The notes below the pieces were generated by a model. The model was not told where the DNA came from and did no database searches. It was given only the letters and a program-made list of their open reading frames with translations. A stretch of 64,000 bases of DNA from Acetobacteraceae bacterium (GTDB lineage Bacteria > Pseudomonadota > Alphaproteobacteria > Acetobacterales > Acetobacteraceae). The translations under genes were made by a program, and so were the position numbers. The stretch spans positions 437,501-501,500 of the forward strand of contig CP039459.1 of NCBI GenBank assembly GCA_004843165.1. Reading direction: 5' to 3'. Positions 9,927-18,383 of this stretch are shown here, piece by piece (position 1 is the first letter of the stretch; each line of letters begins with the position of its first letter).

Positions 9927-10955
9927 TTATTTTTTCTGTAATAAAAGCACCTGAACATGCTGAGAGACAGGCTGCGGATCGTTTTCAAGCTGTTCATATA
10001 GCTTTTGCTCAAAAACATGTTTAAATTTTTGGAGATTTTCGACTGTCTGTTCTTTTTGAAAAAACGCAAAACACATTTCCAAATTTCCTACAAACGTCAT
10101 CATGAAAAAATCTGTGTGTCTTCTAGCCGCAGAAAATTTTCGAGATTCTTCTGAAAGGCAATTCTCTTCTAGCAAAGAGGAACTCTGAAAATATCTCACT
10201 TTAAAAAGATCCAAAAGTGCTTTTTCCTTAAACGGTGCTAAAATCTCTTCATCGCTTCGAGGGTATACCGCCACACGGGGAAAATCAGGCGAATTTAAAT
10301 CAATCTTCCAGTCTGTCGCCATCTCTTTCAAGACCTGCCATGCTTTTTCCAAAATATGATTAAATCCTGTTTCCCAACCGTTTTGACGTCCTGGAGTTAC
10401 GCAAAGGAAATATCCTTTTGGCTTTAATTCTTTCGCCCGCAAAAGTAAAAAATTTTTCCAATCTTTTTGCGCCTGTACCGTAGAATTTTTCTGAAAATCA
10501 GATCCTGGAACGCAATACGCTGCGAGCCCCTCTCCAAAACCTGAAGGACGAGCAGAAAGGAAAATACTCGCATAAGAAGACCACGCCAAATGCACGGAAT
10601 TTTCAGGCATGACCTGAAAGTAAAACGATTTTCCTGAAGAAAAAACCAAAGGCTTGCTCTGATCCTCATACGCCTTAAAAATCGTTGAAAAATTATTATC
10701 TGTTTGGTCATTATAAATCACAGAAAGTATTTTTTGGGAAAAACGCTCTGTAAAAATACATAAGGCTTCCGTCACAAAAAATTTAGAATTCACGCCATCT
10801 GCGCTTCCATAATTCACGAGTAGAATAGTGTTATCTGCATTTTCAATCTCTACGTCTGATGCAGCCTGCTTGAAAATTGGCAACGCTACACGCGCACCAG
10901 AAACCTGCAAATAGGAAATTTTATAATAATCAGATCCTGTTAAACCTTGGCACAT
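9927..10955 (-). CDS. SABATH-type SAM-dependent carboxyl methyltransferase
   Basis: 342 aa. The layout follows the plant SABATH family (salicylate/jasmonate/IAA carboxyl methyltransferases, Methyltransf_7). The N-terminal GSDYYKISYLQ segment corresponds to the family YN-HS-Q block. LLVNYGSADGVNS (about 45-57) is the SAM-binding motif, equivalent to ADLGCSSGPNT. AWSSYASIFLSARP matches the HSSYSLHWLS substrate segment, and the AQKDWKNFLLLRAKELKPKG plus FLCVTPGR stretch matches the F..FL..R..EL.PGG block. It probably methylates a small carboxylic acid or a related acceptor. SD AGAGG lies before the ATG. It is divergent from the thiamine operon. Few bacterial members are characterised; the substrate is unknown. 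Confidence 0.7.
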   Translation of the reverse strand: MCQGLTGSDYYKISYLQVSGARVALPIFKQAASDVEIENADNTILLVNYGSADGVNSKFFVTEALCIFTERFSQKILSVIYNDQTDNNFSTIFKAYEDQSKPLVFSSGKSFYFQVMPENSVHLAWSSYASIFLSARPSGFGEGLAAYCVPGSDFQKNSTVQAQKDWKNFLLLRAKELKPKGYFLCVTPGRQNGWETGFNHILEKAWQVLKEMATDWKIDLNSPDFPRVAVYPRSDEEILAPFKEKALLDLFKVRYFQSSSLLEENCLSEESRKFSAARRHTDFFMMTFVGNLEMCFAFFQKEQTVENLQKFKHVFEQKLYEQLENDPQPVSQHVQVLLLQKK

Positions 10956-11025: not shown

Positions 11026-11055
11026 TAGACAAGCGAATTTTTCTTTGTCTATAAT
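11026..11055 (+). promoter_or_regulatory. sigma70-type promoter of the thiamine salvage operon
   Basis: TAGACA (11026-11031), 18-base spacer, TATAAT (11050-11055), placed just upstream of the TPP riboswitch aptamer. The spacing and -10 are near consensus. Confidence 0.6.
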
Positions 11056-11071
11056 AAAGAAATTTTTATAT

Positions 11072-11155
11072 CCAAGGGGAGTCCCGTACGGGGCTGAGAT
11101 GGCATGGCGCCAGACCCTTTGAACCTGATCTGGATCATACCAGCGCAAGGGATAG
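11072..11155 (+). ncRNA. TPP riboswitch (THI element)
   Basis: The sequence carries the conserved aptamer core in order: GGGGCTGAGAT (11090-11100), then ACCCTTTGAACCTGATCT and GGATCATACCAGCGCAAGGGA on the other arm. The spacing matches the two-armed TPP aptamer of thiC/thiM leaders. The 3' end of the aptamer runs directly into GATAGGATCTTAC and then the ATG at 11164, so the Shine-Dalgarno (AGGA) lies at the edge of the P1 stem. This suggests control of translation start rather than a separate terminator. When TPP is abundant, the downstream receptor and TenA genes should be off. Confidence 0.95.
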
Positions 11156-11163
11156 GATCTTAC

Positions 11164-13587
11164 ATGTTTCTCCAATGGCCTAGGCGACGGTGGGCCTTTA
11201 CGGTGCTGTTGCTGCTTTTTCACCAGATGCCCGATCTCGCTTGTGCAGATGGGCTGAAATCCACCAATGCACTCACGCATAAAGCCCCTAAAAAACGTTC
11301 CGTAAGAATAACAACCAAAGCGCCACCTCCTAAGCCTGAGCATTTTCGGATTGCCTCGCCCCATCATGTCTCAAATGCCGGCGGCGGTTTGATTAGCACC
11401 GATAACGGCATGATGGAAAAAAGCACTTCTTCAGAAGCCTATATTAAAATTCAAAGCCCCACGGAAAATGCTTTTCAGCTTATTGAACTTCAGCCCGGCG
11501 CAAATGTCTCAAGTTCTGATCCTTCCGGTCTTTCTTGGCAGACAGATATTTCTGTTCGAGGCATTCAAGGTTCCGATCTTGGTTATCTTTTAGAAGGTAT
11601 GCCTGTCGGAGATGCCGCCTATGGCGGTGGAACGCCTTCGCAATGGGCAGATTCTGAAAATTATAAATCCGTCACCCTTAACCAAGAGGGCGGAGAAATT
11701 GACGATCCCCTTCTCCAAGCGGCTGGCGGCGTTTTAAGTATGAATTACATCAACCCGGCAAGAAAGGCCGGGGTTAAAGTCGGTTTTACCTATGGCACTT
11801 TTAATACGGACAAAGAATTTGTGCGCCTCGATACTGGCGTTTTAGGTGCAACAAAGATCCGTGCTTTTGCCTCTTATTCCTATACGCAATCCAATCAATG
11901 GCGGGGGCCTGGACAAAATATACGCAACCATGTTGATTTTAAGGCCATTCGCCCTTTTGGAGATAATGATAAAAACGCAGCATCCGTTGTGATGTCGTTT
12001 AACCGTGCCGATATTGCCTATTATCCAAAAGTAAATCTCTCTCAATGGGAAAGTGAAGGAAAAGAAGCTGGCCTGCTTGCCCCTCATTTTGATCCTCAAA
12101 ATGCGGTTGGCGGATCAAATTATTACCCGCTTTACCGCTCCCCCTTTCAAACGATTTATGCCGGCGCACCCATCAATTACCAGTTTACCCCCCATTTAAG
12201 CTTTAAGGCTGAGCCTTATGGCCAGTATATTTTCGGGAATGGCCCGACAGGGGATCAATTTCTGACCAGCGGAAATTACTCAGGTTATGAACAGCCCATT
12301 CCCGGCAGTTTTAACCCGCCTGTGGATAATGACGGCTGGGGAACCTATCGTGATAATTACAGTCAAAAAACCACACGGGACGGCGTTACGCTAACGCTTA
12401 AACATGATTTAAAATGGAATCATTTCACTCTGGGCTACTGGTATGACCATGTAACAGACAGTGAAAAAATGAATTATGTGCCGGTTCAGCAAAATGGCTA
12501 TGCGCCAAATATTTGGGGAGATAATCCTGCAACCATGCTGCATCTTCCAAATGGGCAAGTTTGGAATACCATTAATATGTATTCCGTGACACACAGCAAT
12601 TCTGCCTATGTAGAGGATCGTATTGAATTGCCAAGGGGATTTACACTCATGGGCGGTTTTAAAGAAGTGATTGAATCCATTGACCCGCATAATCTTGTGC
12701 CCGGCCCGCAAAAATCAGGCCGAAATACCTATGCTATTCCATTGCCACGTGCCGGTTTTCTCTGGAAACTTGGGGCGCACGACCAGATTTTCGGTAATGG
12801 CGTTACCAATTTCAGAACGCCTTCCGTCACGGCTTATTATGACACTTATAATTTAACCAATTACGGTGATCCCAACGGGCTTGGCGGTATTTCAGGCTAT
12901 GGGGCGCAAAATCTGAAGAATGAATACGCTATTAATGAAGAGTTTGGGTGGCGGCATACAGGACGCTATGTGATTACTTCGCTGACCTTTTTTAATTATA
13001 ATTTTACAAACCGCCTGATTTCGAGTGTCAATGACCGCAACATTCAAACCACCATCAATGCCGGCGGACAGACCTCAAGAGGGGTCGATGGTGCCATTGG
13101 CTTTAAACCGGTTCGTGGCTTCTCTCCCTATTTAAGCTTTGAATATTTGGACGCTGTGAATAATAATGATCTCCCGGTCGATGGAACGTATCTCCCAACC
13201 AAAGGCAAAAAAGCGATCGAAGCCCCTGAATTTTCCGGAAGCATCGGCCTCAGATATGACTGGCATGGCTTTTTCAGCATGATTACAGCCCATTATAAAG
13301 GGCCTCAATATTCAACCTTTATGAATGATGAATCTATTCCGGGCTATGCCACGGCAGAACTTGCCTTTGGCTATCATGGGAAAGATTTTGGCCCTGTCAA
13401 AGCCCCAAGCTGGCGTTTGAATTTCAACAACCTCTCCAACCAAACTTATCTCTCCGGTGTCGGTACCCCAACCTTTAACGCCAAAGATACAAGGGCTGTA
13501 AACGGCACCATTATCCAAGGACAAAGCCCTAAATATTATATTGACGGCGGTTTCGGCGTAACCGGAAGTTTAAGCGCCGGTTTTTAA
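11164..13587 (+). CDS. TonB-dependent outer-membrane receptor under TPP riboswitch (probable thiamine or thiamine-precursor receptor)
   Basis: About 807 aa. Signal peptide from MFLQWPRRRW to roughly LACA. The plug domain includes SWQTDISVRGIQGSDLGYLLEGMPVGDAAYG, and a long beta-barrel ends in a C-terminal Phe (LSAGF), as in outer-membrane proteins. I start at 11164 because earlier in-frame starts lie inside the riboswitch; AGGA sits about 7 bases upstream. The riboswitch and the two TenA genes downstream point to uptake of thiamine, HMP or degraded thiamine across the outer membrane (OMR1-like role). Ligand specificity is inferred from context only. First gene of a three-gene operon. Confidence 0.88.
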   Translation: MFLQWPRRRWAFTVLLLLFHQMPDLACADGLKSTNALTHKAPKKRSVRITTKAPPPKPEHFRIASPHHVSNAGGGLISTDNGMMEKSTSSEAYIKIQSPTENAFQLIELQPGANVSSSDPSGLSWQTDISVRGIQGSDLGYLLEGMPVGDAAYGGGTPSQWADSENYKSVTLNQEGGEIDDPLLQAAGGVLSMNYINPARKAGVKVGFTYGTFNTDKEFVRLDTGVLGATKIRAFASYSYTQSNQWRGPGQNIRNHVDFKAIRPFGDNDKNAASVVMSFNRADIAYYPKVNLSQWESEGKEAGLLAPHFDPQNAVGGSNYYPLYRSPFQTIYAGAPINYQFTPHLSFKAEPYGQYIFGNGPTGDQFLTSGNYSGYEQPIPGSFNPPVDNDGWGTYRDNYSQKTTRDGVTLTLKHDLKWNHFTLGYWYDHVTDSEKMNYVPVQQNGYAPNIWGDNPATMLHLPNGQVWNTINMYSVTHSNSAYVEDRIELPRGFTLMGGFKEVIESIDPHNLVPGPQKSGRNTYAIPLPRAGFLWKLGAHDQIFGNGVTNFRTPSVTAYYDTYNLTNYGDPNGLGGISGYGAQNLKNEYAINEEFGWRHTGRYVITSLTFFNYNFTNRLISSVNDRNIQTTINAGGQTSRGVDGAIGFKPVRGFSPYLSFEYLDAVNNNDLPVDGTYLPTKGKKAIEAPEFSGSIGLRYDWHGFFSMITAHYKGPQYSTFMNDESIPGYATAELAFGYHGKDFGPVKAPSWRLNFNNLSNQTYLSGVGTPTFNAKDTRAVNGTIIQGQSPKYYIDGGFGVTGSLSAGF

Positions 13588-13607
13588 TTTTCCAAAGGAA
13601 ACCCCAA

Positions 13608-14345
13608 ATGCAAAAAATCCATTTTTTAACATCATTCTGCCTCGTGGCGCTCTGCCTTCCCAGCCTCTCTTTTGCCGCTAAGGCACACCAGAAATTCTCG
13701 GATGAAGCTTGGCAAAAAATTGCGCCCATTTACGAGAAAATTCGTCAACATCCTTTTAATCAGGAATTAGAAAAAGGCACACTCGATAAAAAGAAATTCG
13801 ATTTTTATGCCTCTCAAGATACGCAATTTGTTGAAGATTACACCAAAGCCTTAGCCACTCTGGCCACAAAATTGGATAATCCAAAATCTATGGATAAAAT
13901 TTTAGAATTTACCAGAACGGCACTTTCTGAAGCGACATTTGAGGTCAAGGGCGACTGGCTGCCTCAAAAAACACGCAATCCTGCGCCGGCAACCTTGCTA
14001 TATACCAACTTCACGCTGGCAACGGCAGCCTATAAAAGCCGTGAGGAGTTAGCCGCAGCCCTGCTCCCCTGTTTTTGGATTTATGCACATCTTGGCAATG
14101 AGATTGCGCAAAAGGCAATTCTTCCCAATCCTTATGAAAAATGGATCCATTTTTACAGCAATACCAATAAGGAACGTCCACTGACGGAAGAGAATATTGC
14201 CAATGGCCTCATTGACATCACCGATCAGCTCGCTGAAAAAGCAACGCCTGAAACACGCCAGAAAATGCTAGATGCCTTTGTCTTAGCCTCCAGAATGGAG
14301 CTTAATTTCTGGGATGCCGCTTACAAACTCGAAAATTGGCAATAA
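13608..14345 (+). CDS. secreted TenA-family protein (thiaminase II / aminopyrimidine aminohydrolase), copy 1
   Basis: TenA hydrolyses thiamine or its breakdown product aminopyrimidine to HMP for salvage. This copy has a clear Sec signal peptide (about residues 1-24, SLSFA-AKA), unlike ordinary cytoplasmic TenA. Against B. subtilis TenA the catalytic positions are kept: Asp44 (SQDTQF), Tyr112 (LLYTNF), Cys135 (LLPCFWIY), Tyr163 (HFYSN) and Glu205 (RMELNFW). The Tyr47 position is Phe. It belongs to the Cys-type TenA class. AAAGGA lies 8 bases before the ATG, and the gene starts 20 bases after the receptor stop, so it shares the TPP-controlled mRNA. Expected location is the periplasm. Confidence 0.88.
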   Translation: MQKIHFLTSFCLVALCLPSLSFAAKAHQKFSDEAWQKIAPIYEKIRQHPFNQELEKGTLDKKKFDFYASQDTQFVEDYTKALATLATKLDNPKSMDKILEFTRTALSEATFEVKGDWLPQKTRNPAPATLLYTNFTLATAAYKSREELAAALLPCFWIYAHLGNEIAQKAILPNPYEKWIHFYSNTNKERPLTEENIANGLIDITDQLAEKATPETRQKMLDAFVLASRMELNFWDAAYKLENWQ

Positions 14346-14585
14346 CGCCCCTTCTTTCACCCCTCTTTTAAGGAAACTTTTACAATGAAATCCAAATCTT
14401 TTTCGCTCTTTTTCTCTCTTACCTTGCTCTTACCTAGCCTTTCTTTTGCGGCCGTCCCACAGAAAAAATTCTCAGATGAAGCTTGGCAAAAAATTGCCCC
14501 CATTTACGAAAAAATTCGTCAACATCCTTTTAATCAGGAATTAGAAAAAGGCACGCTTGATAAAAAGAAATTCGATTTCTATGCG
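13692..14585. repeat. direct repeat of the first 40 mature codons of the two TenA genes
   Basis: Bases 13692-13811 and 14466-14585 differ at about 7 of 120 positions by hand comparison, all silent third-position changes, whereas the rest of the two genes is clearly diverged. Either recent gene conversion or strong selection on this segment. Confidence 0.8.
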
Positions 14586-15089
14586 GCCCAAGATGCCTAT
14601 TATCTCAAAGATTATGCGAAAAGCTTTGAAATACTTGCGGCAAAGCTTGAAAATCCGACAGATGCCGCAATTGCTTTAAAATTTGCAAATGACTCCCTCA
14701 AAGAACAACAAGATGATTGGCATCTCAAAGCCCCAATCAGTCCGGCACCGGCAACCCTGCTTTATACAAGCTTTGAACTGAGTACGGCCGCCCTAAAAAC
14801 GCCGGAGGAGTTGGCGGCGACCTTACTCCCCTGCTTTTGGATTTATTCCGCTCTCGGTCAAGAATTAACCCAAAAGGCAGTTTCTCCTAATCCGTATGAA
14901 AATTGGCTCAAAGATTACCGTAATCCCGACTTTCAAAAAGCAACCGATCAAATGATTGATCTCACCAACCGCCTTGCCGCCCAAGCCAGCCCAGCCCAGC
15001 GCCAAAAAATGCTCGATGATTTCGTAACAGCCTCACGCATGGAGCTGAATTTTTGGGATGCCGCCTATAAATTAGAAAACTGGCAGTAA
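14385..15089 (+). CDS. secreted TenA-family protein, copy 2
   Basis: 234-aa paralogue of the preceding gene, again with a signal peptide (LLLPSLSFA-AVP). All six reference active-site positions are present, including the Tyr47 equivalent (AQDAYYL), with Cys in LLPCFWIY and Glu in RMELNFW. It is therefore the copy with the complete canonical site, while copy 1 carries Phe at that position. The two may have split substrates, for example thiamine against formyl- or amino-pyrimidine; this is inference. AAGGA precedes the ATG by about 10 bases. Last gene of the operon; a 12-bp inverted repeat follows. Confidence 0.88.
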   Translation: MKSKSFSLFFSLTLLLPSLSFAAVPQKKFSDEAWQKIAPIYEKIRQHPFNQELEKGTLDKKKFDFYAAQDAYYLKDYAKSFEILAAKLENPTDAAIALKFANDSLKEQQDDWHLKAPISPAPATLLYTSFELSTAALKTPEELAATLLPCFWIYSALGQELTQKAVSPNPYENWLKDYRNPDFQKATDQMIDLTNRLAAQASPAQRQKMLDDFVTASRMELNFWDAAYKLENWQ

Positions 15090-15102: not shown

Positions 15103-15155
15103 CTAGATAACTTTTAGCATCTTTCTAAATTCTAAAGTTATCTAGAACATTATTT
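15103..15155. terminator. inverted repeat between convergent operons, probable bidirectional terminator
   Basis: Perfect 12-bp repeat CTAGATAACTTT/AAAGTTATCTAG (15103-15114 with 15134-15145), loop 19, followed by ATTATTTTTT. It lies between the tenA operon and the oppositely oriented accessory module. Confidence 0.55.
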
Positions 15156-18221: not shown

Positions 18222-18383
18222 AAGCGGAGCCGCCATGGCCGTCTTCAAATCAGCTCTCCCGGACCTGCTTTAACAGGTGGGTGACCGGATAATGCGACCA
18301 CGATCGCAACAGTGCTGGCCCCCTTCGGAGTGCTTATCGGCCCAGAGGTTGATGTGCGAATAACGTACCGGGCAGCTCCTGTG
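18222..18383 (-). ncRNA. ssrS: 6S RNA
   Basis: About 160 nt between zapA and fthC, the conserved 6S position. The minus strand closes with GGAGCTGCC (18379-18371) against GGCGGCTCC (18234-18226), one wobble pair. It contains CTGGGCCGATA, close to E. coli 6S CUGAGCCGAUA, and GGGCCGATAA can pair with TTATCCGGTC around a large bubble, the open-promoter mimic. Inner hairpins TGCGA/TCGCA and ACCTG/CAGGT are visible. 6S binds sigma70 RNA polymerase in stationary phase. Ends are estimated. Confidence 0.85.

Follow-up and report, generated by a model that had tools for sequence, protein, structure and literature searches.

An Acetobacteraceae bacterium carries, in a single operon, a TPP riboswitch, a gene for a TonB-dependent receptor (TBDR) and two genes for TenA proteins that begin with Sec signal peptides. 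TenA is regarded as a cytoplasmic salvage enzyme. Based on the content of this operon, on its occurrence in a second species and on the thiamine genes of both genomes, we propose that it is repressed by TPP and would allow the use of external thiamine by cutting the vitamin outside the inner membrane, a reading to which we assign a probability of about 0.6. The window, i.e., the whole stretch of DNA that was analysed, comprises 64,000 nt (GCA_004843165.1, CP039459.1, 437,501–501,500) of a genome of 1.92 Mb assembled as one contig. The first-pass annotation had described a TPP aptamer, a TonB receptor and two TenA proteins in one unit, and each part was recovered by family searches (RF00059, PF00593/PF07715 and TENA_THI-4; Table 1).

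Operon layout and TPP control

The order of the operon is riboswitch, receptor, TenA1 and TenA2, with gaps of 20 nt between the receptor and TenA1 genes and 39 nt between the two TenA genes. Position 11026, at which the first-pass annotation began its unit, is the -35 box of the candidate promoter. The aptamer sits 5' of the receptor gene, and the first ATG of the receptor reading frame (11104) lies inside it. We chose the start at 11164, which has an AGGA 6 nt upstream and agrees with the start in the sister species. This AGGA belongs to helix P1 of the aptamer in both species, and based on the covariance model it would be masked when TPP binds. In minimum-energy folding with RNAfold, the short leader by itself did not clearly form P1, and the covariance model was relied on.

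Table 1. Features of the TPP-riboswitch operon, in window coordinates
Feature	Position	Strand	Evidence or remark
Promoter-like site TAGACA-18-TATAAT	11026..11055	+	11/12 consensus matches; pattern match only, candidate
TPP riboswitch aptamer	11065..11170	+	RF00059, 75.8 bits against a cut-off of 54.3, E 3.8e-13, full-length match
Shine-Dalgarno AGGA of the receptor gene	11154..11157	+	Within the 3' strand of aptamer helix P1 (cmscan structure line)
TonB-dependent outer-membrane receptor, 807 aa	11164..13587	+	PF00593 barrel E 3e-25 and PF07715 plug E 4e-5, both above cut-off
TenA1, predicted exported, thiaminase II family, 245 aa	13608..14345	+	TENA_THI-4 E 1e-27
Sec signal peptide of TenA1, MQKIHFLTSFCLVALCLPSLSFA followed by A	13608..13676	+	Sequence; contrast with other TenA N-termini
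TenA2, predicted exported, thiaminase II family, 234 aa	14385..15089	+	TENA_THI-4 E 5e-33
Sec signal peptide of TenA2, MKSKSFSLFFSLTLLLPSLSFA followed by A	14385..14450	+	Sequence; signal peptide also conserved in the sister species
Perfect 12-nt inverted repeat CTAGATAACTTT / AAAGTTATCTAG, then T-run	15103..15145		Likely terminator, closes the operon

Our searches retrieved one further genome of the genus, that of the sister species (G001). Its operon consists of the same riboswitch (80.4 bits), a receptor that is 78% identical and one exported TenA that is 72% identical to TenA2; thus, the arrangement that the first-pass annotation had proposed to look for in other genomes does recur. Chance or artefact as the origin of the operon was rejected because this second species carries it as well. 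The two genomes also have genes further downstream in common, comprising reading frames and a 6S RNA near 16.8–18.8 kb of the window and on L036 of the sister species. The 6S RNA gene (RF00013, 55.1 bits) lies at 18223–18381 (-) of the window, and its counterpart in the sister species is at L036 12780–12941. Divergent from the operon, at 9927–10955 (-), is a gene for a SAM-dependent carboxyl methyltransferase (PF03492, the plant SABATH family), for which the closest PDB entry is the fatty acid O-methyltransferase 5f2o.

The receptor has a predicted signal peptide at about residues 1–28, read from its sequence. When compared with the sister-species orthologue, it gave a dN/dS of about 0.08 at a dS near saturation. 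A PDB sequence search with the receptor returned no match and hence no solved relative to indicate the ligand; the riboswitch and the neighbours of orthologous receptors are what point to thiamine.

Export signals and active sites of the TenA proteins

Both TenA N-termini have the textbook form of a Sec signal, with a basic n-region, a hydrophobic core and S-F-A/A at the cleavage site. The signal peptide of the sister-species TenA is MKSKLFATLFSITFLLPSFSFA, followed by T, and in the AlphaFold model of TenA2 residues 1–24 are unordered (pLDDT <50). As a control, we read the N-termini of 42 non-redundant TenA proteins, three of them from this genus, and of 40 more from the family. Within this sample, which covers one bacterial family and a few plasmids, a signal peptide was seen in the three TenAs of this genus and in none of the ~80 others. 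The hydrophobic N-terminus of the TenA at L073 was not counted, as it arises from an upstream TTG. The claim of a Sec signal on each TenA therefore held, and TenA1 and TenA2 are probably periplasmic and not cytoplasmic proteins. A search of the open literature, with subscription papers outside its reach, yielded no description of a TenA with a signal peptide, and exported TenA used as a query against genome-contig and viral-contig collections retrieved no named relatives.

All PDB matches of TenA1 and TenA2 are TenA proteins. The model of TenA2, built from a two-row alignment (pLDDT 76), has B. subtilis TenA as its best match (TM 0.77), with fold matches to 2qcx, 1yaf and 1yak. Of the active-site residues checked against B. 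subtilis TenA, TenA2 keeps all seven (D44, Y47, Y112, C135, Y139, Y163 and E205), and six of these, i.e., all except position 47, are kept in the three exported copies (TenA1, TenA2 and the sister-species TenA). Position 47 is Tyr in TenA2 and in the sister-species TenA and Phe in TenA1. Wild-type H. pylori TenA naturally has Phe47, and its F47Y variant is PDB 3ibx; based on this residue, TenA1 may be a weak enzyme. In addition, 9–13 residues before Tyr112 are missing from all exported copies. The scores of TenA1 and TenA2 against the NCBIfam salvage_TenA equivalog (TIGR04306), 109.2 and 117.9 bits, are below its cut-off of 130, and their best NCBIfam scores are to the TenA part of ThiD-TenA fusions. 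These scores place both proteins in the wider Pfam family and outside the NCBI equivalog, and we would describe them as probably working like TenA rather than by the equivalog name.

TenA2 compared with the sister-species TenA gave a dN/dS of about 0.10, again with dS near saturation, and ratios near 0.1–0.2 were obtained for the exported copies. As judged from these ratios, the receptor and exported TenA of the sister species are under purifying selection. Between the two TenA genes of the window, DNA identity is 90–97% over codons 31–70 and mostly 43–75% elsewhere. The near-identical tract spans about 13698–13817 in TenA1 and 14475–14594 in TenA2, at the start of the mature protein, which suggests gene conversion.

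Thiamine genes of the genus and orthologous receptors in the family

Three TPP riboswitches were identified in the window's genome: that of the window operon, one before thiOS-thiG-thiE-thiF and one before two genes for PnuC/PnuT-family inner-membrane carriers. The first-pass annotation had stated that no inner-membrane carrier is present in the window; this is correct for the window, but the two carrier genes lie elsewhere in the genome under their own riboswitch. ThiL, ThiD and a ThiM-ThiE-ThiD cluster are also present. A search for thiC, positive in 13 of 14 control genomes and in 18 of 29 chosen family genomes, found none in the window's genome, and complete thiamine synthesis is thus missing. 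Thiamine pyrophosphokinase (TPK, PF04263) was found in neither species of the genus, nor was an orthologue of the APH-family kinase, which was detected in seven of 60 relatives. The absence of a kinase concerns these two families; an unrelated thiamine kinase or an importer of TPP/TMP could exist. Based on its gene content, the organism is a predicted HMP auxotroph that makes its own thiazole and therefore needs only the pyrimidine half.

Likewise, no thiC was detected in the sister species. A combined query, with positives from the window's genome and from genomes G125 and G145, detected no ThiG, ThiO or ThiY-like protein and a single PnuT there; the ThiM-ThiE-ThiD cluster and ThiL are kept. 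In the window's genome ThiO and ThiS are fused as one protein (L034 8488–9705, -), under the riboswitch of the thiOS-thiG-thiE-thiF unit. Of two ThiD-like proteins encoded by this genome (L043 1468–2268, +, and L042 1447–2280, -), one belongs to the thiM-thiE-thiD cluster and the other stands by itself; in the sister species only one was seen. The PnuT carriers are ~33% identical to those of relatives, which are ~48% identical among themselves. Whether faster PnuT divergence signals a new substrate was considered, and the idea was dropped, since identity of the neighbouring outer-membrane factor and of the TBDR is reduced about as much.

Receptors of the same family occur in 43 of the 150 family genomes searched (31 of 102 genera), and a TPP riboswitch over the cut-off lies near the receptor in 12 of 28 loci examined outside the genus. 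Two types of partner were observed, namely an APH-fold kinase (putative thiamine kinase) with PnuT, or a ThiY/NMT1 binding protein. The latter combination, a second type of partner swap, was seen in seven other genomes (L114–L120), where the gene next after the TPP-controlled receptor encodes a ThiY/NMT1-like periplasmic binding protein. Five other genera share one block, in which an RND pump, an outer-membrane factor, a small protein, the PnuT-kinase-TBDR-TPP segment, Rpe and a heparinase-like gene follow one another. What remains of this block in the window's genus is the pump side, PnuT and the heparinase-like gene; neither the kinase nor the receptor is found there. The kinase-linked receptors compared are 42–45% identical to that of the window and orthologous to it; their operons have a TPP riboswitch in most cases and share the PnuT family and the chromosomal PnuT block with the window's genus. 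The difference is that they keep the kinase, for which no counterpart was detected in the window's genus, whose receptor has moved beside exported TenA.

A receptor tree of 15 rows placed the ThiY-linked receptors in one clade (100/100). When rooted on the ThiY side, a root that the data do not fix, the TenA-linked receptors fall among the kinase-linked ones. The simplest history would be an ancestor with receptor, kinase and PnuT, followed in this genus by loss of the kinase and by relocation of the receptor to a new partner, exported TenA. In one genome of another genus (G159, 2.0 Mb, lacking thiC) the TPP-controlled receptor orthologue is broken into two frames (L158 7282–9631, -), and the kinase and PnuT reading frames are intact.

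Proposed route, alternatives and known systems

We propose that at low TPP the ribosome-binding site of the receptor gene would be free and the operon would be made. The receptor would bring thiamine, perhaps together with degradation products, into the periplasm, where Sec-exported TenA would hydrolyse thiamine to HMP and hydroxyethylthiazole (HET). HMP and HET carry no permanent charge, unlike thiamine, and would cross the inner membrane by the PnuT-like carriers or by diffusion. Inside, ThiD and ThiM would phosphorylate and so trap HMP and HET, ThiE would join HMP-PP to the thiazole phosphate and ThiL would make TPP. Exported TenA would substitute for the putative thiamine kinase that is encoded next to the orthologous receptor in relatives. 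The strictest form of this scheme holds that thiamine is usable only after the periplasmic thiaminase II split, with import and recondensation of both halves, that TenA replaced the kinase and that in the sister species the split supplies pyrimidine and thiazole alike. We hold this strict form tentatively, at slightly less than even odds. The proposed route as a whole would explain the presence of the thiamine-controlled receptor and of ThiM in a cell with no recognised thiamine kinase. The transport of intact thiamine by Bacteroides PnuT proteins (PMC5613172) counts against an import of fragments.

The substrate is the point on which the most serious alternative differs. According to Jenkins (2007), as cited in PMC5627462, TenA of the B. 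subtilis type favours aminopyrimidine over thiamine, amino-HMP being the preferred substrate of characterised TenA, and by analogy the substrate here may be degraded thiamine. The receptor would then import aminopyrimidine or formylaminopyrimidine, exported TenA would convert aminopyrimidine to HMP, PnuT would import HMP, and thiazole would come from ThiOSGF in the window's genome or from outside. The TPP-regulated thiazole pathway of this genome and its lack of thiC, which leave the pyrimidine alone to be obtained, agree with such a salvage, and the ThiY-linked branch of the receptor family would fit a pyrimidine ligand. However, the sister species has the same operon and no detected ThiG or ThiO, and its need for thiazole would not be met by degraded pyrimidine; ThiM is kept in both species; and the receptor family is otherwise paired with a putative thiamine kinase, which points to thiamine as ligand. 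We consider this alternative unlikely. The periplasmic salvage proposed by the first-pass annotation is thus retained in outline, as the absence of thiC, TPK and kinase and the presence of ThiD, ThiE, ThiM and ThiL fit import, cleavage and uptake; what we would change is the substrate, intact thiamine and not only its breakdown products being the better candidate because the sister species needs both halves.

Two further explanations dispense with feeding or with catalysis. Exported TenA might serve competition or protection by destroying thiamine or its toxic analogues extracellularly, in line with proposals that secreted thiaminases starve competitors (discussed in PMC10147936 and PMC10499793) and with the enrichment of a B. 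thetaiotaomicron TenA in extracellular vesicles (PMC10277260). TPP control and an mRNA common with an uptake receptor speak against it, as does the predicted HMP auxotrophy of the organism itself, and the lost kinase together with the kept ThiD, ThiM and ThiE fits feeding; such a role appears very improbable. It seems even harder to credit that the exported TenAs serve in the periplasm to bind thiamine or HMP and to hand it to PnuT, with no important catalysis. Related receptors do pair with the periplasmic binding protein ThiY/NMT1 in other genera, TenA1 lacks Tyr47 and every exported copy is shortened before Tyr112, but Cys135, Glu205 and Asp44 are present in all copies and dN/dS is near 0.1–0.2.

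Known systems resemble the preferred route, cleavage of thiamine outside the inner membrane, in part. In Bacteroides (TPP - OMthi - PnuT - thiamine pyrophosphokinase; PMC5613172) a TPP-controlled TonB receptor is likewise combined with a PnuT-type carrier, but thiamine enters whole and is pyrophosphorylated by Tnr3; here TPK was not found and exported TenA is added. On a plasmid of Sphingobium sp. RAC03 (L165 2696–5660, +) a TPP riboswitch, a TonB receptor and TenA form one operon as in the window, although the receptor is only 18% identical and the TenA has no signal peptide, as expected of a cytosolic protein. Thiaminase I has been proposed to release the halves of thiamine for rejoining in Paenibacillus (PMC5627462) and is reported to do so in Burkholderia thailandensis (Sannino 2018, as cited in PMC10147936). 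As given in these sources, the scheme shares with ours an extracytoplasmic cut, import, phosphorylation by ThiD/ThiM and rejoining by ThiE; it differs in its enzyme, since thiaminase I has no relationship to TenA and relies on different nucleophiles, in the additional TPK of Paenibacillus and in the lack of a TonB receptor. The B. thetaiotaomicron TenA BT_3146 is packaged in vesicles and degrades thiamine (PMC10277260), which makes it a TenA_C-type enzyme outside the cytoplasm, as predicted here. The text of that paper mentions no signal peptide, riboswitch or TonB receptor, and the structure 2a2o is only 15% identical. The earlier view that no system of this type is well described accordingly stands, within the open literature searched, for TenA with a signal peptide and not for its precedents, the thiaminase I salvage and the Sphingobium operon.

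Cutting of thiamine outside the cytoplasm thus has precedents. As far as can be read from genomes, a cell that pairs an outer-membrane receptor with an exported TenA under TPP control would be using the vitamin in an unusual way. If the proposal is true, this bacterium dismantles thiamine on the outer side of the inner membrane instead of using a kinase as its relatives do; that would give a clear reason why a thiaminase can benefit a thiamine-requiring cell. Annotation pipelines may take such genomes for plain thiamine importers. The route may also be relevant to competition for vitamin B1 in communities that contain small members of this family.
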